Below, in pieces: positions 44,351 to 64,000 of a stretch of DNA of 64,000 nt. The stretch lies in the NCBI RefSeq assembly GCF_900109575.1, contig NZ_FOAF01000004.1:1-64000 (forward strand). The letters are read 5' to 3'. Origin of the DNA: Olivibacter domesticus. GTDB lineage: Bacteria; Bacteroidota; Bacteroidia; Sphingobacteriales; Sphingobacteriaceae. The notes beneath the pieces were generated by a model, which saw only the letters and a program-made list of their open reading frames with translations, did not search any database and was not told the DNA's origin. Position 1 is the first letter of the stretch; each line of letters begins with the position of its first letter. The position numbers were made by a program, and so were the translations under genes.

Positions 44351-44366
44351 GTTTAAACGATTAAGT
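44351..44366. promoter_or_regulatory. LacI-type candidate operator upstream of the lacI gene
   Basis: GTTTAAACGATTAAGT; its reverse complement ACTTAATCGTTTAAAC matches 14 of 16 positions of GCTTAATCGATTAAAC at 59909-59924. It lies about 200 bases before the LacI start and 29 bases after the stop of the upstream gene. Autoregulation is inferred. Confidence 0.45.
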
Positions 44367-45525: not shown

Positions 45526-45529
45526 GCTA

Positions 45530-48451: not shown

Positions 48452-49525
48452 TCAAGTAATTATACGATGTGTAGGTTTCGGATAACCTGGCAAAAAAACG
48501 TCAGCTGCCTTTATTTCAATGCGCACGTTAGTTTCCATTTCAATAGTTGATAAAGCATCGTTTACAATGGTTTTCAAAATGATCGGATCACATTGAATTC
48601 GAGCGTTTATTAACATTTCGACGCTGTTTTCCTGCCAATTATCAATCTTCTGTTCATTTTCTTGAGAAGACCGTGCAGTAAAACTGATTTTTCGCACCAG
48701 ATCTTTCCCCGTTATTAAAAATTTAAGATGACCTATAGGAAGCGCGTAGCTATTTACTTGCTTGTAGATCTGCTCCATGAGGAGTTCACAAGCTTTATGC
48801 GTGTTATCATCTGACTCAATGATCAGTAAATAATCTAGCCATGTCAAAGCCGCCTCTCCTTCACCATAGAGATCATAATCAATCGTTAATGATGTTCGCT
48901 CGGCCGTGTAATTAAATTTCCCTATTTGGTCTAACCATTGCAAAATCGATTTTTCGTCCAATGAGTTCTGATAAATGATCTCCTTATGAGGGAATTTATT
49001 TTTTATTAAATATTGTAGCTCGAGGAGCCTATCACTTGATAATAAATCTATTTTATTTACGACTATAATATCTGCCTCCTCCAACTGTTTCCGGTAAATA
49101 TAATTCACACTGTCTTTGAATAATTTTGATTGGCCGATTAGTACAGGCAGCATTGCCGCATCAGCAAAGACGGAGAGCGTTACCTTTAACTCCTGATGAT
49201 ATATGCTCAATGGGTTTAAAATAGTGGAAACTAAATCAGTACAGGAGCCAACGGATTCTGCAAAAATCACGTCAACCTGAAAGCCCTCTGCCAATTGGGC
49301 AATATTCCTTTCAAAGGCTTCGAAGTTACAGCAGAAACAACTCCCCGTTACTTCTTTAGTAGCGATTCCATTGTGATTTATAAATGCGGTATCAACCAAC
49401 TGCGTTCCCTGATCATTGGTGATAACACCAACGCGTTTGCCTTCCGACTGCAATAACTTGCAAGCCTGATTGATGGCAGTTGTTTTTCCGCTTCCTAAAA
49501 AACCTCCCAAAATATTTACGTGCAT
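48452..49525 (-). CDS. CobW/ZNG-type metal-handling GTPase
   Basis: 357-residue cytoplasmic P-loop GTPase. Motifs: Walker A GGFLGSGKTT at residues 7-16; the family metal-binding CxCC at C63-C65-C66 (SCFCCNF); FAESVGSCTDLV for the switch region; and VVNKIDLL for guanine specificity. A C-terminal region of about 150 residues follows, without a histidine-rich tail. COG0523 proteins deliver zinc or other metals to target enzymes or insert cobalt in cobalamin synthesis. No metal gene or cobalamin gene is nearby, but the Cys-tailed FKBP two genes on is a candidate metal partner. The metal is unknown. Confidence 0.88.
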   Translation of the reverse strand: MHVNILGGFLGSGKTTAINQACKLLQSEGKRVGVITNDQGTQLVDTAFINHNGIATKEVTGSCFCCNFEAFERNIAQLAEGFQVDVIFAESVGSCTDLVSTILNPLSIYHQELKVTLSVFADAAMLPVLIGQSKLFKDSVNYIYRKQLEEADIIVVNKIDLLSSDRLLELQYLIKNKFPHKEIIYQNSLDEKSILQWLDQIGKFNYTAERTSLTIDYDLYGEGEAALTWLDYLLIIESDDNTHKACELLMEQIYKQVNSYALPIGHLKFLITGKDLVRKISFTARSSQENEQKIDNWQENSVEMLINARIQCDPIILKTIVNDALSTIEMETNVRIEIKAADVFLPGYPKPTHRIIT

Positions 49526-49575: not shown

Positions 49576-52209
49576 CTAGCTTAGCTTTTGCTTTTTACCC
49601 GAAACCAATGCATCATTCACAGGAATATTACCATAAACAACATCTAAGCTCGGTATTCCTGATTTCAGGTGTACTTGACCAAAACCTGTATTCGTAGACA
49701 AGAAAGCTGAAAAATCACCAACTTTTGAATCGATATATAATATCTTATCTACGGCGTCATAGCGTAAGCCTGTAAGTCCCTGTAAACAAGCATAGCTCGC
49801 CATTGCCCGTGCATACCAACTACCACACTCGTATTCGTTAAAAGGATTTCTTACACGCCCGTCATATCTTTTTCTACAGGCACGAATAACTTCCAAGCCC
49901 TTCTCTACTTCACCAATCTGCATTAAGTGCGAAGCAACCTGATATTCTATTCCTGTCCAGACTTCATTACTGTAAACAAATGGTAAAGAAAGCATACCGC
50001 CTTTGGGCCAGGTACATAAAAGCAAACCGCCTTCATGCCCCATTGCGTAAGTAGGACGTTGGGGATTAATATGATCGCTCAAATCATCTTTCAAATTATA
50101 TTGATGTACAGCTTTTAGATGGCTATTTACTTTTTCCTGATCGAGTGGGTTTTCTAATCCACACATCGTAGCCATCCAAGATCCTAGCACACCATCAGAC
50201 AAACAGCCTGTACCATATTGATATTTAGGCCCTTCTTTTTTAAGTATTTCTACTGCCTCGGGTGTATATTGCGTATGAAAAGATTGCGCTTTAGTGGGAT
50301 CTGGTGCTTTCAGGCCGGTCCATTGGATTTTCTGAATAAAATATTCCCCATCATATAAGTCGCTCTCCAAATATTTCTTCCCTTTCTTATACAGTGAAAC
50401 ATAGCGTTTCATATCTTTCTTTTGGTAGGTTCCCATTTCGATGAGCGCTTTTAAAGCCCCCAAATAAAAACTGGTACACATACCGTTTGGACCCCAAAAC
50501 TCGATATCGTACGTATTATGGTGCGGCTCTTCCACAATACCCTTTTCTTTTGGGTCCCAGGTAAGAATACAATAATCAAGGCTTTTCTGTACCATGGGGT
50601 ATAACTTTATCATCCACTCATCATCGCCGGAAATCCGCCAATCCCGAAAAACCTTCATAATCCCGCCAAGCTGACCATCAGCGGCCGCATGAAAATCATG
50701 CTTTAAGGGACTAATAGGTAGATTTGCTCTGAAACCTTGATGTCCCTCAATATTTTGGTTTTCACAGAATTCGGTTAAACGCAAACTTCTCTCTAATGCA
50801 GGGAAAAGATGTGGCAATGCCTGCGCGTAGTTCCATACATGCGTACAAGAGCCATCACAACAACCATTATGTGGAAAAATACCTTCATAGGCCCATAATC
50901 GTCCGTCGTGCTGTCGTCTTACGGTAGGTGTTTTAAGAATGCTTAAATTGGCGGCAACAGCTTCCATGACTTCTGGAGGCAAAGAGGAAGTATAAAAGGC
51001 ATCTCTAAACAATAATGAATTTTTATGTAGCAGGCTGTATTGTTCTTTCCAGTAAGCACTCACCTCGTTAATATCTTTAAATTTCTCGCTATACCAGGGC
51101 TTGTAGTTTTCGGGAATCGCCATTGATTCACTCAAACCAAGGGCAGAAGGTGTTGTGCAACAGGCTTCTTTTCCTTGCTTATCATCCGGCGCTGTCTTTC
51201 CAGCTTTTTCATTGGATTCGGGCACATACCACGCCATTAAAATTCGAACTGTTTTTTCCTCTTTCCCATCTAGTTGAATTGGAATAAAGAGAGAAGCACC
51301 CGGTGCGTCCTTATCAACAGGATCCACTGCCTTGCTTTTACCATCTTTAATGGTATTCCAAACCATGGTTAAAGGATCAAACCACGCTCCTCTAAACCAG
51401 CAATAATCGGCTATTACTTCATCTTCATTATTCGTAAAAATGGCAAAATCTGTTTTTAATACGGGTTTTCCTTCCACTTTATCCTGCGATAAGAGAAACC
51501 CTTTGTCCATTTTTTTTATAACACCTACCCCATCAGGTTGCACCACGAAATTCCGGCTATTAAAGGAAAAAACGGCGTCTACTCTTTCGTTACCCGTATT
51601 GACAAATTTGTACTCCAACGCGCCTACAGGCAGACTGGAATTGTCCTCGTCGGTAGGGATAAAAGGGCTCCAGCCCTCGATAGTCACCTTTAAGGGGAAA
51701 TCATTATCCGTCAATTCGATCGATGCGAATGGAAATTTTGTAGTAAACGCAGCTTGTTCAAAACGCGGCAATCCGTACGTTGTACCAGAACCACCGCCAC
51801 CATAGTCTTTATAACCAAAAAGTTTCCACTCAGGTACTGGGCCTTCTAGCACTTTGGCCCCATTTGCCATACCTTTAATCGCTATCGCCGCAAACGTAGT
51901 GGGTTCATGGAATAATTCGGGTTTATGTCTGATTGACATATGCGATATGGCTCCAGAACCTTCTAAACAGAACATCCCAGCGCCTATTCCGCCTATTGGA
52001 AAGGCAATTTTACTTAGATGTTCACCACGGTAAACGCTATTAAAAGCTCTTGCTGAAGCCCCCTCCTCTTCGCTACTTTGAATCTTTTTCGTCGTTTCTA
52101 CATCTTGGGCCTGAGAAGAGGCAAAAAGTGCTGAGGGGGCAGTAGTGGCGGCGACAGTTCCGAGGGTTAAGTTTCGTATAAAACTTCTTCTATCTTTTTT
52201 CTGTTGCAT
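49576..52209 (-). CDS. GH116-like (GBA2/DUF608) glycosidase with Tat signal
   Basis: 877 residues from the start at 52209 (MQQKKDRRSFIRNLTLG), which gives a twin-arginine signal; an ATG at 52260 would overlap the kinase gene. N-terminal beta domain (GBA2_N-like: IAFPIGGIGAGMFCLEGSGAISHMSIRHKPELF) and C-terminal helical toroid with CTHVWNYAQALPHLFPALE, EEPHHNTYDIEFWG (candidate nucleophile E560 or E561) and CLSDGVLGSW (candidate acid/base D672). GH116 enzymes are beta-glucosidases, beta-xylosidases or glucosylceramidases. It is downstream of the AraB-type kinase by 32 bases, so it belongs to the FucI/FucP locus. Specificity is unknown. Confidence 0.85.
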   Translation of the reverse strand: MQQKKDRRSFIRNLTLGTVAATTAPSALFASSQAQDVETTKKIQSSEEEGASARAFNSVYRGEHLSKIAFPIGGIGAGMFCLEGSGAISHMSIRHKPELFHEPTTFAAIAIKGMANGAKVLEGPVPEWKLFGYKDYGGGGSGTTYGLPRFEQAAFTTKFPFASIELTDNDFPLKVTIEGWSPFIPTDEDNSSLPVGALEYKFVNTGNERVDAVFSFNSRNFVVQPDGVGVIKKMDKGFLLSQDKVEGKPVLKTDFAIFTNNEDEVIADYCWFRGAWFDPLTMVWNTIKDGKSKAVDPVDKDAPGASLFIPIQLDGKEEKTVRILMAWYVPESNEKAGKTAPDDKQGKEACCTTPSALGLSESMAIPENYKPWYSEKFKDINEVSAYWKEQYSLLHKNSLLFRDAFYTSSLPPEVMEAVAANLSILKTPTVRRQHDGRLWAYEGIFPHNGCCDGSCTHVWNYAQALPHLFPALERSLRLTEFCENQNIEGHQGFRANLPISPLKHDFHAAADGQLGGIMKVFRDWRISGDDEWMIKLYPMVQKSLDYCILTWDPKEKGIVEEPHHNTYDIEFWGPNGMCTSFYLGALKALIEMGTYQKKDMKRYVSLYKKGKKYLESDLYDGEYFIQKIQWTGLKAPDPTKAQSFHTQYTPEAVEILKKEGPKYQYGTGCLSDGVLGSWMATMCGLENPLDQEKVNSHLKAVHQYNLKDDLSDHINPQRPTYAMGHEGGLLLCTWPKGGMLSLPFVYSNEVWTGIEYQVASHLMQIGEVEKGLEVIRACRKRYDGRVRNPFNEYECGSWYARAMASYACLQGLTGLRYDAVDKILYIDSKVGDFSAFLSTNTGFGQVHLKSGIPSLDVVYGNIPVNDALVSGKKQKLS

Positions 52210-52241
52210 AGTGCATACTTTAGGTTTATATACTATTGGTT

Positions 52242-53906
52242 TTAGTTCTTCTCTAAGCAATCCCCTAATTGATTATACAACTGGTATCGCCTATCGTATA
52301 GCTCTTTTCTAGTTTTATTGGGATAATATTCTTGTCCGAAACCGGGCCCCATCGTTTCCATAGCACGCTCTACCGATGGATAGACTCCTGCAATGGTTGC
52401 CGCAAACATCGCTGCTCCTAGTGCGCAAGTCTGTTCCGATTTGTGTATTTTAAGAGGCATCTGCATCACATCGGCCAGCATTTGCATCACAAATGGTGAC
52501 TTCTGCGCAATACCTCCCACTCCTATCAAACCTTTTACCGGAACGCCCTCTTCCTGGAATCGTTCTACAATTTTTCGTGCGCCAAAGCAAGTTGATTCAA
52601 CTAGTGAATGAAATATACTAGGCGCATTGCTCCCCAGACTTAAACCGCTGATCATACCTTTTAATGTTTGGTTCGCATCGGGTGTTCTTCTTCCGTTCAG
52701 CCAATCCACAGATAATTCGGCATGCTCAGATAAGGGCAATGCCGCTGCCTGTTTACTTAATTCGTGCAATAGGCCATTCTGTATATCTACCATCAGTTTC
52801 TTGGTCACCTCCGCATCCGCTATATCCGACTTGATAAGCATGTGCTGTAAAGGCCAGGACAGCAATTGTTTAAACCAAGCGTAAATATCTCCAAAGGCAG
52901 ACTGCCCCGCTTCTAAACCAACCATACCTGGAATAATAGAGCCATCAACTTGGCCACAGATACCTTTTACAATCTTATCTCCGAATTCATTTTTGGGCAC
53001 AACTAACATGTCACAAGTGGACGTGCCCATGACCTTACTTAAATAATACGATTCTATCTGCCCTCCAACCGCGCCCATGTGGGCATCCATCGCTCCAATA
53101 CCAATTATAGTCGTGCGAGGGATTCCCAGTCGTTCAGCCCACTCTTTACTAATCCTTCCAGCAGGTTGGTTAGCGGCATAAACAGTTTTGGGGAAGCGTT
53201 CTACTATCTTATTCAATCTTGGGTCCAGAGATGAAAAAAATGCCTTAGGTGGCATCCCGCCAAACTCATTTGCCCATAGACCTTTATGCCCCGCGGTGCA
53301 CACACTTCTTTTTATCGTGTTGGCATGCTGCCCACCGGTAAGCAAAAAGGGAATCCAATCACAATGTTCTACCCAACTATACGCAGCCTGATAAACGCCC
53401 TCATCTACTCTGAATGTATGCAATAGTTTTGCCCAATACCATTCAGAGGAATATACCCCTCCAACATATCGTAGGTAATCCCCGCCATATTGCGCGGCAT
53501 GTTCATTAATTTCGGCGGCTTCCTTCACCGCTGTATGATCTTTCCAGAGCACAAACATGGCATTTGGATTATCAGAAAAAGAAGGCAATAACGCAAGTGG
53601 TGTTCCTGACTCATCCACGGCAACGGGTGTCGAACCTGTTGTATCTACAGATATGGCCACAATATTAGCCTGCACGGTATTACCCGCTTGCGCTAAACAT
53701 TTCTTTATGCTTTGCTCCAGTCCTTCAACATAATCTTGTGGATGTTGTCTAAATTGATTCTTTGTAGGATCACAGTATAACCCATCCCGCCAGCGTGCAT
53801 AAAAATGTACTGCACTAGCCTTTTCTTCACCCGTATGGGCATCGACTATAATTGATCGGACAGAATCTGTACCGAAGTCCACTCCAATGCAGTAATCAGT
53901 TTTCAT
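52242..53906 (-). CDS. Ribulokinase (AraB-type FGGY kinase)
   Basis: 554-residue cytoplasmic FGGY sugar kinase. It matches AraB rather than fuculokinase or xylulokinase: GVDFGTDSVRSIIVD, YARWRDGLYCDPTKNQFRQHP, NPNAMFVLWKDHTAV, GGVYSSEWYWAKLLH, KGICGQVDGSIIPG, LEAGQSAFGDIYAWF and LNGRRTPDANQ are all AraB-like. AraB phosphorylates L-ribulose and also D-ribulose at C5. No araA or araD is present; instead FucI and FucP lie just upstream on the same strand. FucI turns D-arabinose into D-ribulose, so this pair could deliver D-ribulose-5-phosphate. Phosphorylation of L-fuculose is the alternative. A 218-base gap with short periodic repeats separates it from fucP. Confidence 0.88.
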   Translation of the reverse strand: MKTDYCIGVDFGTDSVRSIIVDAHTGEEKASAVHFYARWRDGLYCDPTKNQFRQHPQDYVEGLEQSIKKCLAQAGNTVQANIVAISVDTTGSTPVAVDESGTPLALLPSFSDNPNAMFVLWKDHTAVKEAAEINEHAAQYGGDYLRYVGGVYSSEWYWAKLLHTFRVDEGVYQAAYSWVEHCDWIPFLLTGGQHANTIKRSVCTAGHKGLWANEFGGMPPKAFFSSLDPRLNKIVERFPKTVYAANQPAGRISKEWAERLGIPRTTIIGIGAMDAHMGAVGGQIESYYLSKVMGTSTCDMLVVPKNEFGDKIVKGICGQVDGSIIPGMVGLEAGQSAFGDIYAWFKQLLSWPLQHMLIKSDIADAEVTKKLMVDIQNGLLHELSKQAAALPLSEHAELSVDWLNGRRTPDANQTLKGMISGLSLGSNAPSIFHSLVESTCFGARKIVERFQEEGVPVKGLIGVGGIAQKSPFVMQMLADVMQMPLKIHKSEQTCALGAAMFAATIAGVYPSVERAMETMGPGFGQEYYPNKTRKELYDRRYQLYNQLGDCLEKN

Positions 53907-53909
53907 TAT

Positions 53910-53979
53910 TTAGTTGTTAGTTATTGGTTGTTAGTAGCAAGACTATATTAGTTGTGAGCTGTGAGTTGCGAGTTGTGAG
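53910..53979. repeat. Degenerate 7-base tandem repeats
   Basis: About ten consecutive 7-base units, for example TTAGTTG-TTAGTTA-TTGGTTG and TTGTGAG-CTGTGAG-TTGCGAG-TTGTGAG. They lie directly upstream of the AraB-type kinase start, in the gap before fucP. The units are diverged but keep the period. Confidence 0.6.
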
Positions 53980-54028
53980 TATTAAAATCTTCGTTTTAAG
54001 TCCTAAAATTACTGACCACTACTTAAAA

Positions 54029-54116
54029 CTTGACGATTCGACTACTTGACGATTCGACGACTCAACATTGTCCAGTTGGCTAATTCAACTATTTAACAAT
54101 TCAACTACTTCACTTA
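54029..54116. repeat. Degenerate 8-base tandem repeats
   Basis: Eleven 8-base units, beginning CTTGACGA-TTCGACTA and CTTGACGA-TTCGACGA, then CTCAACAT and later TCAACTAT-TTAACAAT-TCAACTAC. They lie just after the fucP stop (54125). The unit TTGGCTAA also appears at 57354-57377. The role is unknown. Confidence 0.6.
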
Positions 54117-54124
54117 TTAACGTA

Positions 54125-55462
54125 TCAATGATGATGTAACACTATTTTATTGTCATGTTCTATCTTTCCTGTTCCCCAGATGGCATACCAGGCAATGAAA
54201 GCAAAGCATAGCATCGGGATAAAGAAGGCTACCGACATGCTTGAATGATCTGCTACTACACCCATAATTGGCGGACAAAATGCTCCACCAGCAACGGCCA
54301 TCACCAAAAAAGAAGATCCTTTTTTAGTGAGTGATCCCAAGCCATGAATACCCAAGGCAAAGATGGTTGGAAACATAACCGACATAAAAAAGTAACAAGA
54401 AAAGAGCGCAATCACAGACCCCCAGCCAAGTGCTAATTGCACAAATACCATTAAGATGGTATTGATAATAGCATAGCCTGCAAGTAGGCGTTTTGGTTTA
54501 AAAAATTTCATGAGATAAGAACCAGAAATCCTTCCAATCCAAAATAGCCCCATACCACCAATAGCCAAAATTAAAGAGGCTGCCTGTTCGGCATTTTTTG
54601 GCATAAAGACTTCCCCTAAATACCCTAAGTGCTGCATGATATCCTTCACGGGTGCAGTTACATTCGGAATTTCCTCTGTAACATAATTTATAAAAAAAGA
54701 GTTTACACCGGTCTGCGCTGCGACGTATAAAAACTGAGCAATGACAGCCGCAATAAACGCCGGATGTTTTAACAGCCTGCCCATATTAGGATTATCTTCT
54801 GCTTCTTCCTCACTTTTTTCTTCAATGTCGGGCAATTTAATTAGCATGAAAATAATGGCTACCACCACCACTACACAACCTACACCCATATAGGGTTTAA
54901 CCAGTGAGTCAAATTTTTCAGCACCATCCTGTTGCTCTGCACCAAAAATGAACAGTCCCCCCATTAATGGTCCTAATATCCAGCCAAGGCCATTAAACGA
55001 TTGGGAAATATTAATTCTTCTTGCCGCAAATTCCTCTTCTTGTGAGCCCAATACCGTTGAATAAGGATTAGCAGCCGTCTCTAGGCATGCCAAACCACAA
55101 GCGATGACAAATAAGGCTAATAAAAAGGGAATAAAAGCTTCGAATTTGGCTGCAGGATAAAATAGAAAAGCCCCTATCGCAAAAATGACCAATCCTAAAA
55201 TGATACCTTTCTGATAACCATAACGTTTCATGAATAGACCCGCAGGAACAGCCATAGCTAAGTATCCAATGTAAAGTGAAAATTGAACAAAGCCTGACTG
55301 CGCCTTGGAAACATGAAGTGTATCTTGAAAATGCTTATCCAACACATCCAATAGTCCATGGGCGAAACCCCATAGTAAGAAAAGGCTGCAGATAAAAATG
55401 AAAGGAATTAGATAATTCCGGCCATCGGCGCGAAAGAGAGATGCTACTTTTTTTTGCTTCAT
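54125..55462 (-). CDS. fucP: FucP-type sugar:proton symporter (MFS)
   Basis: 445-residue inner-membrane permease with 12 predicted helices, of the FucP/NagP branch of the major facilitator superfamily. The acidic residues known in FucP are in place: the Asp in LLDVLDKHFQ (helix 1) and the Glu in CLETAANPYSTVLGS (helix 4). It lies 6 bases after fucI, so the two are one transcription unit. FucP takes L-fucose and also D-arabinose, which share ring geometry, so its presence fits either sugar. The specific substrate is inferred from the isomerase. Confidence 0.88.
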   Translation of the reverse strand: MKQKKVASLFRADGRNYLIPFIFICSLFLLWGFAHGLLDVLDKHFQDTLHVSKAQSGFVQFSLYIGYLAMAVPAGLFMKRYGYQKGIILGLVIFAIGAFLFYPAAKFEAFIPFLLALFVIACGLACLETAANPYSTVLGSQEEEFAARRINISQSFNGLGWILGPLMGGLFIFGAEQQDGAEKFDSLVKPYMGVGCVVVVVAIIFMLIKLPDIEEKSEEEAEDNPNMGRLLKHPAFIAAVIAQFLYVAAQTGVNSFFINYVTEEIPNVTAPVKDIMQHLGYLGEVFMPKNAEQAASLILAIGGMGLFWIGRISGSYLMKFFKPKRLLAGYAIINTILMVFVQLALGWGSVIALFSCYFFMSVMFPTIFALGIHGLGSLTKKGSSFLVMAVAGGAFCPPIMGVVADHSSMSVAFFIPMLCFAFIAWYAIWGTGKIEHDNKIVLHHH

Positions 55463-55468
55463 GTCTAG

Positions 55469-57232
55469 CTATTTATATAAAGGTCCGTAACTCGCACAGG
55501 CTCTATAATCAGCCCCCTCACCATCCATACCAAAGGCGTTCCACGCGCTCGGCCTAAATATTTTATCTTCCTCAACATTGTGCATACAAACCGGTATTCT
55601 TAACATAGCAGCAAGCGCAATTAAGTCGGCACCTATGTGACCGTGACTAATAGCGCCATGATTGGAACCCCATGCGGCCATCACCGAATACACATCTCGA
55701 AACGCCCCCCTCCCAGTCGTTTTAGGGACAAACCAAGTAGTTGGCCACGTACGGTCGGTACGTTCATCTAATAGCTTATTCACATTTTCGGGCAATTCAA
55801 CTGTCCACCCTTCCGCAAGCTGTAAAACCGGACCAATCCCCTTCACTAAGTTTAACCGACACATCGTTACAGGCATCCCTCCCTCGGTTAAAAATTTTGA
55901 AGAATATCCACCACCCCTAAAATAATCAAGATTTGCCGGGTGCCAGGTAGTCGCTTCCAAACATGCGTCCACCTCAGCGTCTGTTATTTCCCAGAATGGT
56001 TTCATTACAGATTCTCCATGCAGCTTTTGTTTCCCTGTTCCATCTAAAGTAGCCGCACCGGAATTAATAAGATGAATGAACCCATTCTTTGCAACACCAT
56101 CCGGTTTCCATCCCGAAACGCGTTCCACTGCTTCCGGGCTCCAAAAGGTTCTCACGTCGGCAAATATTTGTGCTTTATTAGTGAGCAAATAATTAAATAA
56201 CATAGAAACCCCGTTCAAGGCATCATTTTCCGTCGCAACCATATATGGGGCACGTTTGCCATTCCAATCGAAAGATGAATTCAACAAGGCTTCCGAGAAA
56301 TCGCCATTGGGTAGAAAATCGGTCCACTGCCGCTGCCCTTGAAAACCCGAAACAAGTGCATGATGTCCGTGCGCTTCTTCTGCAAAACCCATATCTTTTA
56401 ATTTCTTGTTCCCAATCATGAGATCCCGTATGATAAGCGTCATCTTTACCACAAATTCCCAATCCTTATCTTTATCTTCCCTTGATTTTACTTTGTGCTT
56501 CTGATTAAAATCATCACCCTCCAGGCAATATTTCTTTGTCCAGCTTAATGCCTTTCCGTATTCCTCTTGGTCATATATATTCAACTGAATGCGCCTTAAA
56601 ACTTCGGAAGAGTCTACATATTCGTTTCGCATACCCAGATAAGATTGGAAAAAGTCTGGATCAACAATAGAACCAACAATACCCATTGAGACGGAGCCTA
56701 TGGCCAAATAAGATTTTCCACGCATCAACGAAACAGCCAAACCCGCCTTAGCAAATGTTAGCAGTTTATTTTTTACATCATCAGGAATTGCTCGATCACC
56801 CATATCTTGCACATCTTCGCCGTAAATACCAAAAGCAGGTAGACCCTTCTGGTTATGTGCCGCTAATGTTGCTGCTAGATAAACAGCTCCCGGACGCTCC
56901 GTTCCATTAAAGCCCCAAATGGCCTTTGGTATTAAAGGATTCATATCCATTGTTTCTGAACCATAACACCAGCAAGGAGTAACCGATAGTGAAACCCCTA
57001 CGTTTTCTACATCAAATTTTTCCGCGCAATCGGCAGCCTCTTGTACCCCACCTATACAAGAATCTGCGATCACGCACTGCACCGGGCTTCCATCAGGATA
57101 ACGCAGTTCCGACTGGAACAGCGCGGCAACGTCCTGCGCCATTTTCATAGTAGTATCTTCTAATGATTCACGGATTCCTCCTAAACGGCCATCGATAATA
57201 GGTCGAATTCCTATTTTGGGATATTTATTCAT
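55469..57232 (-). CDS. fucI: L-fucose / D-arabinose isomerase
   Basis: 587-residue cytoplasmic Mn-dependent aldose-ketose isomerase, the expected length. Catalytic residues seen: E335 ([10 protein letters not shown]), D359 ([10 protein letters not shown]) and the histidine in [12 protein letters not shown] near the C-terminus. [33 protein letters not shown] and [15 protein letters not shown] are near-identical to FucI. FucI turns L-fucose into L-fuculose and D-arabinose into D-ribulose. It is followed by fucP and an AraB-type kinase, and preceded by DUF6786 and GH172 genes. No L-fuculose-1-phosphate aldolase gene is in the window. Confidence 0.96.
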
Positions 57233-57243
57233 TTATTTAAAAT

Positions 57244-57377
57244 TTAGTATCAAGATGTTAGTATCAAGTATCAAGACATTCTTAAAAACCAACGGATGAA
57301 TTCAGCAGTCTTACGTCTTGCTAACTATGTCTTATGTCTCTTTTAAACCTACATTGGCTAATTGATTAATTGGCTAA
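57244..57377. repeat. Short tandem repeats upstream of fucI
   Basis: The 141-base gap holds TTAGTATCAAG twice (57244-57254, 57258-57268) followed by TATCAAGACAT, then TTGGCTAA-TTGATTAA-TTGGCTAA (57354-57377), which overlaps the stop codon of the preceding gene. The 8-base period matches the repeats at 54029-54116. Confidence 0.5.
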
Positions 57378-58630
57378 TTAAATTGTGCTTCTTTCAAAGA
57401 AATCCCCAGCACTTTTTGGGCAATTTCATCCAAAGCCTGTTCGTCACCTGTAAAATGGAAAACATAGTGTTGATGACTCATTTCTTCCTTCGGTTTCAAA
57501 AATGCGGCCGGCGATACGCTCTCTATTTCATAAAATGGCCCCATTTGGCTACCATCGGCTAAAGACCCATCATTATAAGCATTCATCGCGTCGCCGGTAA
57601 AAGGATCTTTATCAGGTGTCCATTCCTGATTAAGATAGGTCCCATTTTTGTTGACATCAAAGTACGTAACAGTGAGTACCTTTGTATCAGCAGCATAACT
57701 CCCAGCAACGGGTTTCACCCTTAAAGGGGGTATACCTAATTTACCGCGCGATTTGCCATCTGCCTTTAACAACAATACACCATTTTTATACGCAATCCGA
57801 TCTTTCGGTATCTCACCGAAATAATCGGTGGTGGCAATTTTCCCACTTGCTTTTTCTTCGTAAGGTATAATGATCACTGTTTTTGGTGTAGGCGTAAACA
57901 TATCTAAACTCCAAAGACATGGTGCCCCCTTTTGACGATCCCAGTTATTATCTCCATTATTCCTAATGGTATTAGTGGTTTTAAAGCCAACACCTTTTAT
58001 ATTTTTACCCAATTTTATTGCTAATTGGTTTTCGATGGCATCATCTTCCAATACTTCAATTTTGCGATATAGATGAATATTCAATGGCGTACCGGCATAA
58101 TTCGTAATTGCTGTCTCTTTACTCAATTCTGCAACCTTTTCAGAACTAGCAATTAAAGTCCAGCGTTCACTATCAATAGCGGGTGGTGTATGCCAATTAT
58201 CAAAATCCATCTTCGTATTCGGCTTGAAGAAAACAGAAAATTTACCGCCCTCTGGTCCGAGCCATAATCTATCCTCTCCACCGTACGCGTTCATGTGATC
58301 GTCTTCTTTATCAAAAGCTTTGTAATTAATCCATCCAAAGCTTTTTCCTTTGCTGCCATCTGCCGTGCTGGTAAACACTTTCGCTTGATATTTAGGCGAA
58401 ACGATGAGCTGCGCATTACCGGCCTTGTTACGAAGAATCACCAAGCTATCTTTTTCTTGCAAGAAAGAAAGGTCGTAACCAAATGTGCCCGAAGCATAAT
58501 CTTCCATTTCTTTTGTATTTTCTTGTTGCCCTTTTCCCGATTGCGTAGGGTTATTCTGACATCCCCATAAGCCCACCACTACGAATACCGTAATAATTCC
58601 CGTTTTGAAATGCATCATTTTTTTTAGCAT
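57374..58630 (-). CDS. DUF6786-like lipoprotein
   Basis: 418-residue lipoprotein (lipobox LWGC near residue 24). The rest looks like a beta-rich, mutarotase-like fold: LRNKAGNAQLIVSPKYQAKVFTSTA, YGGEDRLWLGPEGGKFSVFF and VSPAAFLKPKEEMSHQHYVFHFTG. I assign DUF6786 from memory of similar proteins; no catalytic residues can be named. It lies 18 bases after the GH172 gene and is co-transcribed with it. A role in sugar anomer conversion or binding at the cell envelope is possible but unproven. Confidence 0.7.
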   Translation of the reverse strand: MLKKMMHFKTGIITVFVVVGLWGCQNNPTQSGKGQQENTKEMEDYASGTFGYDLSFLQEKDSLVILRNKAGNAQLIVSPKYQAKVFTSTADGSKGKSFGWINYKAFDKEDDHMNAYGGEDRLWLGPEGGKFSVFFKPNTKMDFDNWHTPPAIDSERWTLIASSEKVAELSKETAITNYAGTPLNIHLYRKIEVLEDDAIENQLAIKLGKNIKGVGFKTTNTIRNNGDNNWDRQKGAPCLWSLDMFTPTPKTVIIIPYEEKASGKIATTDYFGEIPKDRIAYKNGVLLLKADGKSRGKLGIPPLRVKPVAGSYAADTKVLTVTYFDVNKNGTYLNQEWTPDKDPFTGDAMNAYNDGSLADGSQMGPFYEIESVSPAAFLKPKEEMSHQHYVFHFTGDEQALDEIAQKVLGISLKEAQFN

Positions 58631-58648
58631 TGAATAATTTTTAAAAGA

Positions 58649-59818
58649 TCAATTAACCTCGAGCTCATTCTTTGTTGGTAATTTCGGAAAACGAGCATGG
58701 GGTTCACGCTGATACCAGTAAGCAACAGTAATAATGTCCGACTTTTGTGGCAGATAACGCCCTTCAGATCTCCAGCCTAAATCCTGAATAGTGACCTTTA
58801 GATCGTCGTCAAAGCGTATAGGATCCATAATATGCCAGCGATACATACCAAAACGCTGTTGCGCATTATAAACACCATCTGGACGTATAACTTGATGCAA
58901 ACCTGCATAAGGAGTAGAATATTCTTGATACTGGTGTGTCTTTTTATTCTCAAAATTATACGACCCACAGAAATAATCTTCTGTACCTGTTCCCACAATA
59001 GTGGCAAAGTCTTTATCTCCGTCCATAAAGAATTTGATCTCTCCTTCTCCCCACCAACCATTATTATTCACACCGATTGCCATGTAAGTACCTACATAAT
59101 GCCCCTTTCCTTTTACGCCATCCAAAATAGTATGCAAAGAGGTTGAATTAGGATTTGATCGACGGTATTGAGCATGGAAATAGGCTTCTTCTTCATCTAC
59201 TTCTGTTAACGCGTAATCTACTTGATAGTAAAGATTCATCGGCTCTGAATTAATATTTTCTACCGTAATTCTACATTTCTTACGAAAAGGCATTTTCCAA
59301 TAACAGTTGAAAGCGCTACCTGGGTTAACGGTTACCGCCAAGGAATTCAGTGTAGCAAAGTCATTCCATGCCATTCCGAAGAAAGCACCTACCGGCGCTT
59401 CTATGGAAGGCTCTGTTTCATCATCCCAATAGAACCGAATAATAGAGTAGCTCCAATTACCTGTTGGTGTCATCCAAATATGTTGTACCGCACCTGGCCC
59501 CTCCATTTCAGCAATCGTGAAGGTCTCCCCACCGTTAATTGTTATATAGGGGTTCACTTTCCATCCGAGTCCGAGATCACGCGCTTGGGATGCGGAATTA
59601 GCAACATTACGCTGCCCCGCTTGCTTCGCAGGATCGGCCATTCCACCTTTACCTTTAGCGCCGGTAAAGTTTTCTGGACTGATGGAGCGCGTTTTAGCAT
59701 CAGATAATTTAGAAAGGTTCCCCATGTTCATATCAAGGCCATTGAAGGCTCCCTGCTTCTGGGCATAGGAAAGAAAACAAATAAAAAATGTGGCAATAAA
59801 TAATGAGGCCTGTTTCAT
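58649..59818 (-). CDS. GH172-family (DUF2961) glycoside hydrolase
   Basis: 389 residues from the start at 59818 (MKQASLFIATFFICFLSYAQ), a clean signal peptide; ATGs at 59821 and 59881 are possible but less likely. Two tandem jelly rolls of DUF2961 with the conserved WWGEGEIKFFMDGD and TGTEDYFCGSYNF segments (about residues 253-280), which hold the family's two catalytic glutamates. Characterised GH172 members act on difructose dianhydrides and on alpha-D-arabinofuranosides of D-arabinan. Next to FucI and an AraB-type kinase this makes a D-arabinose-releasing role attractive. A palindromic candidate operator lies upstream at 59909-59924. Confidence 0.88.
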   Translation of the reverse strand: MKQASLFIATFFICFLSYAQKQGAFNGLDMNMGNLSKLSDAKTRSISPENFTGAKGKGGMADPAKQAGQRNVANSASQARDLGLGWKVNPYITINGGETFTIAEMEGPGAVQHIWMTPTGNWSYSIIRFYWDDETEPSIEAPVGAFFGMAWNDFATLNSLAVTVNPGSAFNCYWKMPFRKKCRITVENINSEPMNLYYQVDYALTEVDEEEAYFHAQYRRSNPNSTSLHTILDGVKGKGHYVGTYMAIGVNNNGWWGEGEIKFFMDGDKDFATIVGTGTEDYFCGSYNFENKKTHQYQEYSTPYAGLHQVIRPDGVYNAQQRFGMYRWHIMDPIRFDDDLKVTIQDLGWRSEGRYLPQKSDIITVAYWYQREPHARFPKLPTKNELEVN

Positions 59819-59908
59819 CATAGTTTCTTTAAGGTTCATATATAGTGTATCGTTTATTATTGGATGTAAGGTATTTGACACCTATCAATTTTAGTATTAC
59901 AATAGTAA

Positions 59909-59924
59909 GCTTAATCGATTAAAC
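59909..59924. promoter_or_regulatory. LacI-type palindromic candidate operator upstream of the GH172 gene
   Basis: GCTTAATCGATTAAAC contains the perfect 12-base palindrome TTAATCGATTAA centred on CG, a typical LacI-family arrangement. It lies 90 bases before the GH172 ATG in the 155-base gap after the lipoprotein gene. The site at 44351-44366 matches 14 of 16 positions. It suggests an internal regulated promoter. Confidence 0.55.
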
Positions 59925-59973
59925 AAACAATGTTTATTTTTATTTTTTTGTATCATTTCTTCTACAAATTCTC

Positions 59974-60405
59974 TCAGGGCATCCCTTCTAGCACAACTGT
60001 TTGCCCCAAAGAATAGATATTACCGCTATAATTTACGTCTTTCACTTTTGTTGAACCATTTAACTTAACAGTTAAATGATACGTTTTTGTTTCGTCCGGA
60101 ACTTCGTAGATAAATTCAGTGGGTGCATTGGCTAAAGTGGTATTAAAAGCAGGAAGTGTTTTTGTGACATTCACGACTTCTTTGACCTCAATAAAGACTT
60201 TTACCGGTAATTCCATTTCTTCCGGAATGGCATTTGGAATGTTCCATGTTAATTTAACGTGTTTTTCATCTACTTGTTGGAGTGTTAGGTTTTCTACTGC
60301 TGGCAGGCTTACTCCTTCCTTCCTGTCCAATACATCACGATCCGTGCAACTATAGAAAAGAAGTAAGAACAGTGAGCTTATACAGATTATTGTTGTTTTC
60401 ATCAT
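59974..60405 (-). CDS. Small Fn3-like lipoprotein in SusE/F position
   Basis: 143-residue lipoprotein (lipobox FYSC near residue 20). One beta-sandwich domain resembles fibronectin type III: VENLTLQQVDEKHVKLTWNIPN at its start and KTYHLTVKLNGS near the end. No catalytic residues. It lies 8 bases after susD. Small surface lipoproteins at this position usually help bind glycan; that role is inferred. Confidence 0.75.
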   Translation of the reverse strand: MMKTTIICISSLFLLLFYSCTDRDVLDRKEGVSLPAVENLTLQQVDEKHVKLTWNIPNAIPEEMELPVKVFIEVKEVVNVTKTLPAFNTTLANAPTEFIYEVPDETKTYHLTVKLNGSTKVKDVNYSGNIYSLGQTVVLEGMP

Positions 60406-60413
60406 TCAAAAAA

Positions 60414-62162
60414 TTAGTAACCAGGATTTTGTTTATAAGAACCTTTAGACCAATTCATTTGGGCTTGTGGGATAGGCAAAAACTCATCCCTACCTGCCGT
60501 AAACCGGCCTTGATTGTACCAATCAAAACGTGTTTTTTCTTTGTTGATAAAGGCATTCATAACGGGTTCCAATTGCCCCCATCGCATTAAATCGAAGAAG
60601 CGTCGGCCTTCCATAGCAAATTCCAAACGGTTTTCCCACATTAAAGCCTGCCAGGCAAAGTCTTTGGTCCAGTTAGTATTCACACCTGGCTTATATGTTT
60701 CTACTTTATAATCCATCCATAAAGTTCCGTCAGGCTTAAATAATCGCTGTGTACTGTTAGCTGCCCGTTCACGCACCCGGTTAATTAATGGTAATGCTTC
60801 ATTGAATCGATCGAGCTGTATAAGCACTTCCGCTTTCCACAATAATACTTCCGAATAGCGAATAGCTTTTTCATTCATGGAATTCATGACATAAAAGGGT
60901 CTAAAAATACAATCGCAATCAGGATGCACTTGTTCCTTCATCGAATTAAAATAGCCGTATTGGAAGGGTGCCCGCGATCCAGATTCTTGATATAGTATAT
61001 TGTTATCGTATTTCCAGGGATAACCGGGGATAGCTGTTGTATGACTCAATCGAGGATCAAATTCGTGACTCTTAAAAAATTCGACGTACTGATTACCTTG
61101 CATCTCCGTATCATTATAATTTTCAAAATCTGGTAACCCCGTTTCGTCTGTTTTAAAGGCATTAACCATGGTATGAGAAACTTTATTGAAATCGCAACAA
61201 GTAAAATAAGGCGACCACCAAGGTGCATTAAGCTCGTTACCGCGATTAATCCGCCCATCCGTGGTGCCATCATCTATTGAGTACTGTATTTCCCAGAGTG
61301 CTTCTTTGGTTGCATTATCAAATTCAATCATAAAATTGTCGCCAAAATCAGCCTGTAAATCGTAAACAGCACCGTCTACTGCCATAATCGCATCTAAATG
61401 GGTCAACGCTCTTTGAAGCGTTTCCTTATTAATATTGATTACTTGGTGCTGGTCATTTTGCTCATACGCCCTAAATAACAAAGCTTTTGCTGCCAATGCA
61501 TGTGCAGCATACTTGGTGGGTCTTCCCTTTTCGGTTTGTTTGTCGGGCAATACAGCAGCGGCATCTTCAAAATTTTGAATAATCCAGTCCCACAAGGGCA
61601 GATCATTCACCATATCGTCCGGACGATTTGAAATTCCCTCTACTACCACCGCATCTGAAGGTGTATTTTCATCTATGATGGGCACATACTTCCATCGAAG
61701 CTTCATTCCTAGATAAATCCACCCACGAAGAAATTTCATTTCGGCAATGCGTTGATCTTTATTTGGAAAAGTGGCCCCATCAACTGCATTTAATAAACGT
61801 AAAGCGATATTCGCGCGACTGATTCCTACGTAACCACGATACCAAGGGCCATCATTATTACCCACATTTGGCGTTACACCGGTAAACGTTTCCATTTCAT
61901 ACCAGGGGGTTTGGTCACTTAAGCCCCCTCCTCCTTTATAGGCGTCGTCTGACCGAACGGATTGAATCCAAGGATTATGCGTATCTGGAAAGCCAAGAGA
62001 AGGCATATATGAATACGCTGCTATCACAAAACTTTCTATTTGAGCAGGGTCTTCTGCTTGGCTTTGAGATAAAACTGCTTTTGTATCTACCTCTAAAAAT
62101 TTTTGACATCCTGCCAATATAGTAAGCAGAAATAATGCGATGTATAATTGAAGTGTTTTCAT
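60414..62162 (-). CDS. SusD/RagB-family outer-membrane glycan-binding lipoprotein
   Basis: 582-residue lipoprotein with lipobox LAGC near residue 19 and a mature start QKFLEVDTKAVLSQSQAEDPAQIESFVIAAYSY. The RagB C-terminal motif ALMWENRLEFAMEGRRFFDLMRWGQLEPV is clear. It pairs with the SusC encoded 10 bases upstream and begins the surface part of the GH172/FucI locus. A CDCIF segment (residues about 415-419) is a minor peculiarity. Confidence 0.94.
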   Translation of the reverse strand: MKTLQLYIALFLLTILAGCQKFLEVDTKAVLSQSQAEDPAQIESFVIAAYSYMPSLGFPDTHNPWIQSVRSDDAYKGGGGLSDQTPWYEMETFTGVTPNVGNNDGPWYRGYVGISRANIALRLLNAVDGATFPNKDQRIAEMKFLRGWIYLGMKLRWKYVPIIDENTPSDAVVVEGISNRPDDMVNDLPLWDWIIQNFEDAAAVLPDKQTEKGRPTKYAAHALAAKALLFRAYEQNDQHQVININKETLQRALTHLDAIMAVDGAVYDLQADFGDNFMIEFDNATKEALWEIQYSIDDGTTDGRINRGNELNAPWWSPYFTCCDFNKVSHTMVNAFKTDETGLPDFENYNDTEMQGNQYVEFFKSHEFDPRLSHTTAIPGYPWKYDNNILYQESGSRAPFQYGYFNSMKEQVHPDCDCIFRPFYVMNSMNEKAIRYSEVLLWKAEVLIQLDRFNEALPLINRVRERAANSTQRLFKPDGTLWMDYKVETYKPGVNTNWTKDFAWQALMWENRLEFAMEGRRFFDLMRWGQLEPVMNAFINKEKTRFDWYNQGRFTAGRDEFLPIPQAQMNWSKGSYKQNPGY

Positions 62163-62172
62163 TATTAAAAAG

Positions 62173-64000
62173 CTAAAATGTTACATTTACCCCTACAAAT
62201 AGTGTTCGTGGCATGGGATATCCAAAACCGGGATTTTCAGGATCTCCGCCCGTAAACTTATCGTCACCCCATGTTTTTTTCAACATAAACAGATTTTGAC
62301 CGGATACATAAAACCGAAGCCTGGTTAAATGCCAATTATCCGCCAGTTTCTGAGGAAGGGTATAACCAATATCAAGTGTACGTAATTTAATGTAAGAGCC
62401 ATTTTCTATGAAATACGTAGACATCCGCTTTTCTCCATTTGCGTCTCGTCTAGATAAAGCTGGAATATCGGAATTAGGGTTATTTGGTGTCCAAGCCTCC
62501 AAGATCCTACCTGGATGATTGCGATCATTCTGCACACCGATATTCCAGAAATCGCTCAGCTCTTTCCATGAGTTGTAAACATCATTACCAAATACCCCTT
62601 GAATAAAAAAGGTTAGATCAAAATTCTTGTAACGCGCTTCAAAATTTAAGCCTGCCATTAGATCCGGGTCGGTAACAGCAATCCAGGTGCGATCATAAAT
62701 TTCATTGATTACCCCATCTCCATCCAAATCCTTATATCGAATTCTCCCTACACCTTTACCTTGTTGTTGTGGTGCGTTATCTACTTCTTCCTGTGTCTTA
62801 AAGATGCCATCTGCGACTAACCCATATAATGAATTTAATGGCCTACCAGTAATATCATCTGTTAACCCATTACCACCATAGTTAAAACGTACATTTTCCG
62901 GCACATCATGCACTTCATTTTTATAAGCGGAAAGATTTGTTGTAATGGTATAAGAAAAATCGTTCTTCGTGTCTCCCCAACTAAGTAAAAACTCAAAACC
63001 CTTATTGGTCATATTCGCTCCATTTACCCAGCGAAAGCCACCTTCACCCAGAGCCGCGATATAAGGTGGTTCAAAAAGCATATCGGTTGTCTTCTTATTA
63101 AACCAATCGAAAGAACCCGATAAGCGATTATCCAGAAAAGCATAATCTAGCCCTATATTGGTCTGTGTAGACGTTTCCCATTTCAAATCTGGATTTCCTA
63201 AACTGCTTCTTCGATATCCGGAAGGAATATTTCCTGAGGGATTCCCACCAATGGCATAAGAGGTGCCATTTACATCTGGCACATAAATGTCCGTATACCG
63301 GCCAGTTAACACAGGCTGCGAATTACCATTTTTACCCCAGCTGGCACGAAGCTTTAGATCAGACAAAAATGTCGCATCCCGAAGAAATGCTTCATCCTTT
63401 AACCGCCATCCTGCAGAAAAGGCTGGAAAATTGCCATAGCGATTATTTGCTCCGAAAACGGAAGCACCATCACGCCGGAACGTTGCCGATAATAGGTATT
63501 TAGATTTATAAGCATAATTAATCTTTCCAAAGAATGATAGAATACGACGTTCGTTACCACCACCTATTAACTCCCTTCGTTCGCCGGTAGCGGTAGATAA
63601 ATAAGCATAAGCACGGTCTTCCAACAGAATTCCTTCTCTATAAGCGTTCACACTTTCATTCGTGAATTTATACGTCTCAATACCACCCAATATATCGAAT
63701 CGGTTATTATTGAGCGCTAAATTATATACCAAAGTATTCGTCCAGGTTTGCCCGATATCGTGCCAGTTTTGCTGTCTAACACCATTCAGGCTACTACTTT
63801 TCCCTCCCGCTTCTTCCCATTTTCGCTGAATATTTCGGTCATACCACATACTATAATCGATGCCATACTGCGTCTTTAAATTCAGGTTATCCAGTATTTT
63901 CAGGTTAGCATAAGCAGTTCCTAAGACCTTCATGAAGTTGCCAATATTATCTTTGTTGAGCGTTAAATCGCGGATTGGATTATTGAAATCGTCCATCCCC
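62173..64000 (-). CDS. SusC/RagA TonB-dependent transporter, C-terminal part (cut by window edge)
   Basis: At least 607 residues of the barrel of a SusC-type transporter. The reading frame is open to the right edge of the window; the ATG at 63996 is internal, since the preceding codon is in frame and the regulatory-like and plug domains are missing. Barrel features include repeated LRASWGKNGNSQPV-type strands, PDLKWETSTQTNIGLDYAFLDNRLSGSFDW, VADGIFKTQEEVDNAP, GRIRYKDLDGDGVINEIYDRTWI (a DxDGDG loop typical of SusC) and SYIKLRTLDIGYTLPQKL near the end. It ends FVGVNVTF. Partner of the SusD 10 bases downstream. Confidence 0.93.
   Translation of the reverse strand, partial: GMDDFNNPIRDLTLNKDNIGNFMKVLGTAYANLKILDNLNLKTQYGIDYSMWYDRNIQRKWEEAGGKSSSLNGVRQQNWHDIGQTWTNTLVYNLALNNNRFDILGGIETYKFTNESVNAYREGILLEDRAYAYLSTATGERRELIGGGNERRILSFFGKINYAYKSKYLLSATFRRDGASVFGANNRYGNFPAFSAGWRLKDEAFLRDATFLSDLKLRASWGKNGNSQPVLTGRYTDIYVPDVNGTSYAIGGNPSGNIPSGYRRSSLGNPDLKWETSTQTNIGLDYAFLDNRLSGSFDWFNKKTTDMLFEPPYIAALGEGGFRWVNGANMTNKGFEFLLSWGDTKNDFSYTITTNLSAYKNEVHDVPENVRFNYGGNGLTDDITGRPLNSLYGLVADGIFKTQEEVDNAPQQQGKGVGRIRYKDLDGDGVINEIYDRTWIAVTDPDLMAGLNFEARYKNFDLTFFIQGVFGNDVYNSWKELSDFWNIGVQNDRNHPGRILEAWTPNNPNSDIPALSRRDANGEKRMSTYFIENGSYIKLRTLDIGYTLPQKLADNWHLTRLRFYVSGQNLFMLKKTWGDDKFTGGDPENPGFGYPMPRTLFVGVNVTF

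Follow-up and report, generated by a model that had tools for sequence, protein, structure and literature searches.

A probable compact D-arabinofuranoside/D-arabinose utilization locus in Olivibacter domesticus

Results

Gene content of the locus

The window analyzed here is a 64,000-nucleotide stretch of Olivibacter domesticus DNA (contig NZ_FOAF01000004.1, positions 1 to 64,000; the contig is called C9 below), and from position 49576 to its end it carries a minus-strand run of nine genes encoding, in order, SusC, SusD, DUF4945, GH172, DUF6786, FucI, FucP, an AraB-type kinase, and GH116 (Table 1). An earlier note on this DNA had listed these nine genes in the same order as a possible D-arabinan-type utilization locus, and scores against Pfam and family models recovered all nine as described. 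Its assignment of the kinase also held, with 592 bits against TIGR01234 (cut-off 583) and 709 bits against PRK04123 (cut-off 428). The analyses below make it highly probable that this is a compact D-arabinofuranoside/D-arabinose utilization locus, leading from SusC/SusD to D-ribulose 5-phosphate under putative LacI control. The source genome comprises 6.78 Mb on 23 contigs, with a listed completeness of 100 and contamination of 4.17.

The GH116 protein matched Pfam with 186 and 144 bits, and FucP scored 290 bits against PRK10133, below the cut-off of 427. By eye, both glycosidases carry export signals: GH116 likely starts at the ATG near 52209 with a twin-arginine-like leader, and GH172 likely starts at the ATG near 59818 with a signal-peptide-like leader.

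Table 1. Features of the locus and its flank, in window coordinates
Feature	Position	Strand	Basis and remarks
LacI-family regulator, proposed repressor of the locus	43127..44152	-	Pfam LacI and Peripla_BP; homologues in relatives; palindrome before the gene
Operator-like palindrome GTTTAAACGATTAAGT	44351..44366	.	~200 bases upstream of LacI
CobW/COG0523-type GTPase	48452..49525	-	Pfam cobW 101 bits; starts 51 bases past GH116
GH116, predicted exo-beta-D-arabinofuranosidase	49576..52209	-	ExoMA2 best PDB match; listed open reading frame extends to 52260
AraB-type FGGY kinase, predicted D-ribulokinase	52242..53906	-	Family models, gene context, tree
FucP-type sugar:H+ symporter, predicted D-arabinose importer	54125..55462	-	TIGR00885 342 bits, cut-off 280
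FucI, predicted D-arabinose isomerase	55469..57232	-	Family model 1056 bits (cut-off 850); PDB match; tree
DUF6786 lipoprotein-like protein, galactose-mutarotase fold (predicted model)	57374..58630	-	538 bits; predicted model; co-occurrence
GH172, predicted exo-alpha-D-arabinofuranosidase	58649..59818	-	DUF2961 307 bits; ExoMA1 match; listed open reading frame starts at 59881 (GTG)
Operator-like palindrome GCTTAATCGATTAAAC	59909..59924	.	Upstream of GH172
DUF4945 small lipoprotein-like protein	59974..60405	-	Pfam 151 bits
SusD-like outer-membrane glycan-binding protein	60414..62162	-	Pfam
SusC-like TonB-dependent transporter	62173..64000	-	Cut by window end; whole gene at C9 62173-65382

Both glycosidases are closest to exo-D-arabinofuranosidases

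Among structures in the PDB, the best match of the GH172 protein was ExoMA1 (8ic8; 401 bits), followed by 4kq7 (136 bits), DgGH172c (8ah3; 134 bits), and alphaFFase1 (131 bits). For GH116 the best structure was ExoMA2 (8ic6; 355 bits), and none of the 12 other matching chains exceeded 39 bits. The nearest crystallised relatives of the two enzymes are, by a wide margin, the exo-D-arabinofuranosidases ExoMA1 (alpha) and ExoMA2 (beta). In ExoMA2, Glu431 and Asp557 are reported to act in catalysis and His446 and Arg483 in specificity (PMC10509167; here and below, published systems are described from the portions of the cited papers that were available). These residues sit at 435, 561, 450, and 487 of the printed chain, a constant shift of 4, and the window GH116 retains all four, as E459, D585, H474, and R511, respectively, with identical spacing.

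As alphaFFase1 belongs to GH172 and the LacI protein scores 197 bits against a fructose-responsive subfamily model (cut-off 390), the GH172 enzyme might instead act on alpha-D-fructofuranosides (difructose anhydrides), with FucI and AraB as coincidental neighbours. This we find scarcely credible, given the much lower score of GH172 to alphaFFase1 than to ExoMA1, a GH116 of the beta-D-arabinofuranosidase type, and the fact that neither FucI nor AraB would be needed for fructose.

A conserved protein of 690-700 residues was also observed at D-arabinose loci of other genomes (L050 1220-3298, L053 16550-18628, and L207 14361-16454), with weak or no matches to GH88 or GH127, and is possibly a further D-arabinan enzyme. 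Its search against the PDB returned a single match (E 0.076), and no match to it at E <= 0.001 was found in the 116 kb searched of this genome.

Genomic context and descent of FucI and the AraB-type kinase

The best PDB match of FucI was 3a9r, which is named a D-arabinose isomerase (964 bits, versus 857-888 bits for L-fucose isomerases), and fucI is single-copy in the genome. AraB is encoded twice, by the locus copy and by a 65% identical copy at C9 379 kb that forms part of a canonical araB-araD-araA set (C9 379-383 kb, ~325 kb from the locus) together with, by eye, a Nudix-type regulator and arabinofuranosidase-like genes. The locus araB stands without araA and araD, and in this respect the locus is not an L-arabinose operon. 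An AraB-seeded search returned three further FGGY kinases, best modelled as gluconokinase (one) and glycerol kinase (two). Where the earlier note had no aldolase, araA, or araD in view, the whole genome holds two class II aldolases, one at C9 381 kb and the other on contig C20, and a single araA location, at C9 382 kb, so that the operon and its surroundings contain none of these. As these two aldolases are AraD and a rhamnulose-1-phosphate aldolase/dehydrogenase fusion, none is of the type encoded by fucA, the gene that the note had singled out as one to look for.

Gene content was compared across 301 genomes drawn from the window's family, its own genome counted; species of a single family are not independent of one another. 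The thresholds were E <= 1e-100 for GH172, 1e-150 for FucI, 1e-80 for L-fucose dehydrogenase, and 1e-40 for AraA. This yielded 62 GH172 matches in 61 genomes, FucI in 19 genomes, and an L-fucose dehydrogenase homologue in 241. In 15 of the 19 FucI genomes, the distance from fucI is at most 10 kb to GH172 and about 4 kb or less to an araB. AraA was found in 14 of the 19; among the genomes that lack it, G016, G039, G099, and G234 (completeness 99-100) have one araB each, located beside fucI, and in the fifth, G020, no araB was found.

FucI and AraB trees were then used to compare gene neighbourhood with descent, which is what such trees test, rather than biochemistry. The FucI tree (44 rows, midpoint root, labels taken from gene neighbourhood) contains a 98/95 branch with 37 D-arabinose-context rows, window included, and two unclear rows (L167, L208) on one side. 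On the other side are L169, L170, and L209, labelled as fucose type, and the unclear L210 and L211; because the neighbours of L169 and L170 model as rhamnulose type, 'phosphorylating deoxyhexose context' is the safer label. In the AraB tree (39 rows), 18 fucI-linked AraBs from the window's family, Hymenobacteraceae, and Flavobacteriaceae form one group (99/98), apart from 14 araA-linked AraBs. Five Bacteroidales fucI-linked AraBs and L125 fall outside both groups, and the labels require three changes on this tree. Based on its genomic context, the locus kinase is predicted to prefer D-ribulose.

A palindrome accompanies the LacI gene and the locus

Two similar palindromes were first spotted in intergenic stretches, and a 16-base pattern, RYTTAAWCGNTTAARY, was then searched for. 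Because the pattern was written after viewing the sites at the locus and in relatives, counts there are not independent of it. The genome of 6.78 Mb contains seven sites, five of them in the locus, and the reversed-pattern control gave none. The locus sites precede LacI (C9 44351), GH172 (59909), and SusC (65446, 65544, and 65643, 98-99 bases apart). The sixth (C9 378347; L008 7347) lies at the divergent L-arabinose promoter, and the seventh (C10 357797) falls, by eye, inside an open frame and is taken as chance. On this evidence the LacI gene probably belongs to the locus, and we infer that its product binds the palindrome as a putative operator.

For relatives, 40 GH172 loci (L047-L086) were hand-picked from the ranked list of 62 matches; three of the 40 (L048, L074, L078) are short because a contig ends. 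LacI homologues of 50-63% identity occur in nine of these 40. The palindrome, with at most one mismatch, was present in 16 of 16 listed relatives' loci versus 0 of 25 other GH172 loci (487 kb); the 16 include L071, which has GH172 and neither FucI nor LacI in the stretch, and L062, with LacI and no FucI. Three loci stand outside both lists: L048 and L168, the latter being the G239 locus with FucI, FucP, and DUF6786, have no site, and L167, a FucI-LacI pair from G173, has an exact one. Exact palindromes were also found in 3 of 14 L-arabinose stretches, all three in the window's genus, and the other 11 had no site under two mismatches, the reach of each stretch to the promoter being unchecked. 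Wider loci from named genomes were taken as the best 80 of 119 confirmed, ranked by likeness to DgGH172c, and are no census. Of 14 such loci scanned, eight carry the palindrome with no more than one mismatch, at positions that were not checked, and six lack it; both Dysgonomonas pieces scanned are among these six, and a third piece, L219, likewise has no site. A scan for promoters and terminators was uninformative (20 promoter-like sites versus 16.0 in shuffles, and 4 terminator-like versus 5.4).

DUF6786 follows two alternative putative catabolic modules

An AlphaFold2 model of DUF6786, with 17 sequences aligned, had a pLDDT of 87.3 and a pTM of 0.85. Its best solved folds were 3k25 (Z 22.1, rmsd 3.0, 253 aligned) and 3nre (Z 21.2, rmsd 3.2, 251 aligned), and GalM 4bze gave Z 20.9 (rmsd 3.4, 266 aligned); Foldseek was also run. 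The list of folds also holds non-mutarotases of the same fold, YidC included (Z about 15). In this predicted model DUF6786 adopts a galactose-mutarotase fold, as expected of the aldose 1-epimerase superfamily, and we propose that it is a sugar mutarotase or a sugar-binding protein. Its sequence profile found two matches in the PDB (E 0.31 and 0.71), both unrelated by name, and our literature search found no paper on DUF6786.

Among the 40 GH172 loci, FucI occurs in 12 and a second FAA-hydrolase-family protein in another 12, with both together in none. DUF6786 is encoded at 12 of 12 FucI loci and 12 of 12 loci with the second FAA-hydrolase-family protein, and at 0 of the 16 remaining. At L069, GH172, GH116, an aldehyde dehydrogenase, a dehydratase, the second FAA-hydrolase-family protein, and DUF6786 lie side by side, and by analogy with the alpha-ketoglutarate route described for D-arabinose (PMC6336799) this gene set looks like that route. 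Oxidative genes in relatives replace the isomerase-kinase module, and this exchange supports D-arabinose as the common product. As the split between modules largely follows genus, it does not represent many independent events.

Alternative routes and evidence weighing against D-arabinose use

Several observations weigh against D-arabinose use through FucI and AraB, and they are brought together here with the routes that they would favour. Directly upstream of SusC lies a complete-looking cluster of co-oriented genes (C9 65818-72993; L007 4818-11993). It encodes an L-fucose dehydrogenase (403 bits against a cut-off of 300), an amidohydrolase whose nearest model is L-fuconolactonase (281 against 400), and an FAA-hydrolase-family protein (342 against 500). 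Another short-chain dehydrogenase, a dehydratase of altronate/galactarate type, and a FucP additional to that of the operon complete the set, and an AraC gene points away from it. Three relatives (L070, L071, L072) have a 437-aa gene inside this cluster, and the L070 copy, the one scored with Pfam, is a GH29 alpha-L-fucosidase (338 bits). Based on the enzyme models and the GH29 gene, the cluster looks like a route for L-fucose. L-fucose dehydrogenases are, however, described as accepting D-arabinose, and a route to pyruvate and glycolate has been reported (PMC6336799), so the cluster could itself oxidise D-arabinose. D-arabinose released as proposed might then be burned mainly by its dehydrogenase, lactonase, dehydratase, dehydrogenase, and hydrolase to pyruvate and glycolate, with FucI and AraB secondary. 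A homologue of the L-fucose dehydrogenase occurs in 22 of the 40 GH172 loci, and in 12 of the 40 GH172 and DUF6786 are joined by the second oxidative set, which has a distinct FAA-hydrolase-family protein and never occurs with FucI. We nevertheless consider this an improbable main route: the window cluster has a dehydrogenase named for L-fucose and its own AraC and FucP genes, the palindrome is absent from its promoter region, and its dehydrogenase has homologues in 241 of 301 genomes versus 61 with GH172 and 19 with fucI.

The FucI and FucP families take both L-fucose and D-arabinose, and both window proteins exceed the cut-offs of models named for L-fucose. True L-fucose use would have FucP and FucI act on L-fucose and AraB or another kinase on L-fuculose, with a rhamnulose-type aldolase elsewhere. 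The L-fucose cluster adjoins the locus, and contig C20 holds at ~76.8-83.0 kb (L220, L221) a rhamnose-like cluster of a transporter, the rhamnulose-1-P aldolase/dehydrogenase fusion, and a divergent FGGY kinase. The latter, the sixth FGGY kinase of the genome, lies ~1.5 kb after the fusion and escaped the AraB-seeded search; it scores highest against rhamnulokinase, at 61 bits (cut-off 528), and shares 38% identity with the FucI-adjacent kinase of G205. No fuculokinase is encoded in the locus, and none was found elsewhere by the AraB-seeded search, no genome-wide search with a fuculokinase model having been made; a kinase for L-fuculose may be encoded elsewhere in the genome. Against L-fucose use, the genome has no fucA-type aldolase gene such as a classical L-fucose operon contains, the adjoining oxidative cluster appears equipped for L-fucose, the window FucI is apart from the FucIs found beside rhamnulokinase-type kinases or a rhamnulose-type aldolase, and GH172 and GH116 are nearest to D-arabinofuranosidases, which together leave it little likelihood. 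L-fucose, fructofuranosides, and oxidation were each rejected as the main route on the evidence counted against them.

The link between FucI and AraB also has its exceptions. Four FucI genomes do not fit: in G020, the neighbours of FucI (68% identity) are an aldolase fragment and a kinase of rhamnulokinase type (496 bits, cut-off 528); in G205, those of FucI (67%) are a divergent kinase and an aldolase that models as rhamnulose-1-phosphate aldolase (218 bits, cut-off 170); in G173, FucI (78%) has LacI as its only partner; and in G239, FucI (73%) occurs with FucP, DUF6786, and distant GH172s and without an adjacent araB. Among the wider loci, 9 of 20 with FucI have an AraB match, one of them partial and at an edge (L122), and 11 have none within the stretch covered. 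Flagellimonas L211 (8114-11607) is a case against a strict rule tying AraB to the D-arabinose branch of FucI, since its AraB-type kinase (668 bits) has as neighbours LacI, SusC/SusD, and a FucI that falls outside that branch. The AraB of the Dysgonomonas locus described below is 53% identical to the araA-linked copy of the window genome versus 51% to the locus copy. In the AraB alignment no position separates fucI-linked from araA-linked sequences at 85% fixation, and the specificity of the kinase rests on context for this reason. GH116 was found in 4 of the 40 GH172 loci of relatives.

With respect to the polymer, Pfam found no GH183 (DUF4185) among the 13 window proteins scanned. The sole DUF4185 protein genome-wide is encoded on another contig, scores 53-54 bits, versus 315 and 316 bits for the pair in the Dysgonomonas locus, carries ricin-type lectin domains, and has PDB matches that are only of lectin type (E <= 0.01). 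The locus thus lacks the GH183 that a complete D-arabinan-depolymerising polysaccharide utilization locus (PUL) would contain. With regard to the earlier note's 'D-arabinan-type' description, D-arabinan as a polymer is less certain than D-arabinofuranosides because no clear GH183 endo-D-arabinanase is present.

Neighbouring genes

The CobW/COG0523-type GTPase that follows GH116 is possibly a metal chaperone serving the locus, and some relatives (L047, L049, L062, L119, L126, L162) likewise have a homologue in the vicinity of GH116 or GH172. At 44395-47230, in the interval separating LacI from the operon, the window encodes a 376-residue protein without a Pfam match, distant relatives of which (30-35%) recur at some other D-arabinose loci, and a protein with a GH123 catalytic domain.

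Discussion

The route that the earlier note had proposed, in which GH172 releases D-arabinose, FucI forms D-ribulose, and AraB forms D-ribulose 5-phosphate, is supported by the PDB relatives of GH172 and GH116, the absence of fucA, a separate oxidative L-fucose cluster, fucI-linked araB in araA-less genomes, the FucI and AraB trees, and the gene set of a counterpart of the experimentally studied D. gadei PUL42. D. gadei itself is absent among the best 80 of 119 loci, and a locus of Dysgonomonas sp. UBA7710, which is 97% identical to DgGH172c over 140 residues, served as a stand-in. Its contig encodes, in order, LacI, FucP, GH172 (70% to the window), GH116 (57-59%), DUF6786 (53%), a 698-residue protein without a Pfam match, a 643-residue GH172, FucI (74%), SusC, SusD, DUF4945, SusC, SusD, a 307-residue protein, GH172c, two DUF4185 proteins equivalent to GH183, and AraB (51%). 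This order agrees with that of the D. gadei tags 02467 (GH172a), 02468 (GH116), 02471 (GH172b), and 02479 (GH172c) (PMC10115798, PMC10509167). Judged on the UBA7710 locus, which is almost identical to PUL42, the window locus shares with PUL42, a D-arabinan PUL (Al-Jourani et al. 2023, PMC10115798), a GH172 of ExoMA1/DgGH172a type, GH116, DUF6786, FucI, FucP, SusC/SusD, DUF4945, LacI, and AraB. Unlike PUL42, it has neither the two GH183, nor the two further GH172, the second SusC/SusD pair, or the conserved 690-700-residue protein. With its ExoMA1-type GH172, a GH116 bearing the ExoMA2 residues, a FucI of the D-arabinose branch, and a fucI-linked AraB, it is very probably a compact D-arabinofuranoside/D-arabinose locus of the PUL42 lineage without the endo-enzyme. 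Parabacteroides sp. Marseille-P3160 (L113) has a similar gene set.

Other described systems resemble the locus in part. The D-arabinan cluster of Microbacterium arabinogalactanolyticum likewise combines GH172 and GH116 exo-D-arabinofuranosidases with an isomerase and a kinase, putative there, leading to D-ribulose 5-phosphate; as far as described, this Gram-positive organism differs in having an ABC transporter in place of SusC/D and FucP, GH183, and exo-enzymes without a signal sequence (PMC10509167). The Nudix-type AraR regulon for L-arabinose in Bacteroides uses the same kinase family, and the operon ~325 kb away is of this kind, whereas the window araB is paired with fucI rather than araA and its likely regulator is LacI (PMC4666351). 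Non-phosphorylative routes for L-fucose and D-arabinose have enzyme classes matching those of the upstream cluster and differ in using neither FucI nor AraB; in the window genome such a route looks like one for L-fucose (PMC6336799).

From the gene identities, the gene content of this genome and of relatives within the searches made, the trees, the palindrome distribution, and the predicted fold, we infer a pathway with its enzymatic steps, substrates, protein locations, repression, and inducer. SusC/SusD would bring D-arabinofuranosyl oligosaccharides into the periplasm, where GH172 would trim terminal alpha-linked and GH116 terminal beta-linked D-arabinofuranose. DUF6786 might then speed the conversion of the freed sugar between furanose and pyranose forms or between anomers, which is the weakest step of the model. 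FucP would import D-arabinose, FucI would convert it to D-ribulose, and the AraB-type kinase would form D-ribulose 5-phosphate, which would enter the pentose phosphate pathway with no need for an aldolase. The LacI-type repressor would control GH172, SusC, and itself through the palindrome and, in the genus, also reach the L-arabinose promoter.

The D-arabinose route is not new as an idea, having been published in outline (PMC10509167, PMC10115798). Our literature search found nothing on D-arabinan together with ribulokinase, and no statement that the kinase of the pathway is of AraB type. The additions made here are the kinase lineage, the regulator, the link to DUF6786, and the exchange of modules. 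They point to the enzyme that probably serves as kinase in the second cytoplasmic step, to a likely regulator together with its candidate operator, and to a family, DUF6786, that follows D-arabinose genes. A more speculative extension, about which we are more doubtful than convinced, is a modular D-arabinose system across Bacteroidota. This would pair GH172 and DUF6786, the latter as a novel periplasmic mutarotase or other sugar-processing enzyme of the galactose-mutarotase fold that is specific to D-arabinose, with either of two interchangeable modules, namely FucI and a dedicated D-ribulokinase branch off AraB or an oxidative route relying on a dehydratase of altronate type and an FAA-hydrolase-family protein. 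LacI and the palindrome would control the first and, in the genus, touch the L-arabinose operon, which would link the use of the two arabinose enantiomers.

These results also carry a warning for annotation, in that FucI and AraB can be mistaken for fucose or L-arabinose genes. As the locus has no GH183, the strain may grow on short D-arabinofuranosides or on products released by other organisms. Polymers of D-arabinose are known chiefly from the cell walls of mycobacteria and related organisms, and bacteria that strip D-arabinose are therefore a source of enzymes for dissecting walls of the mycobacterial type.

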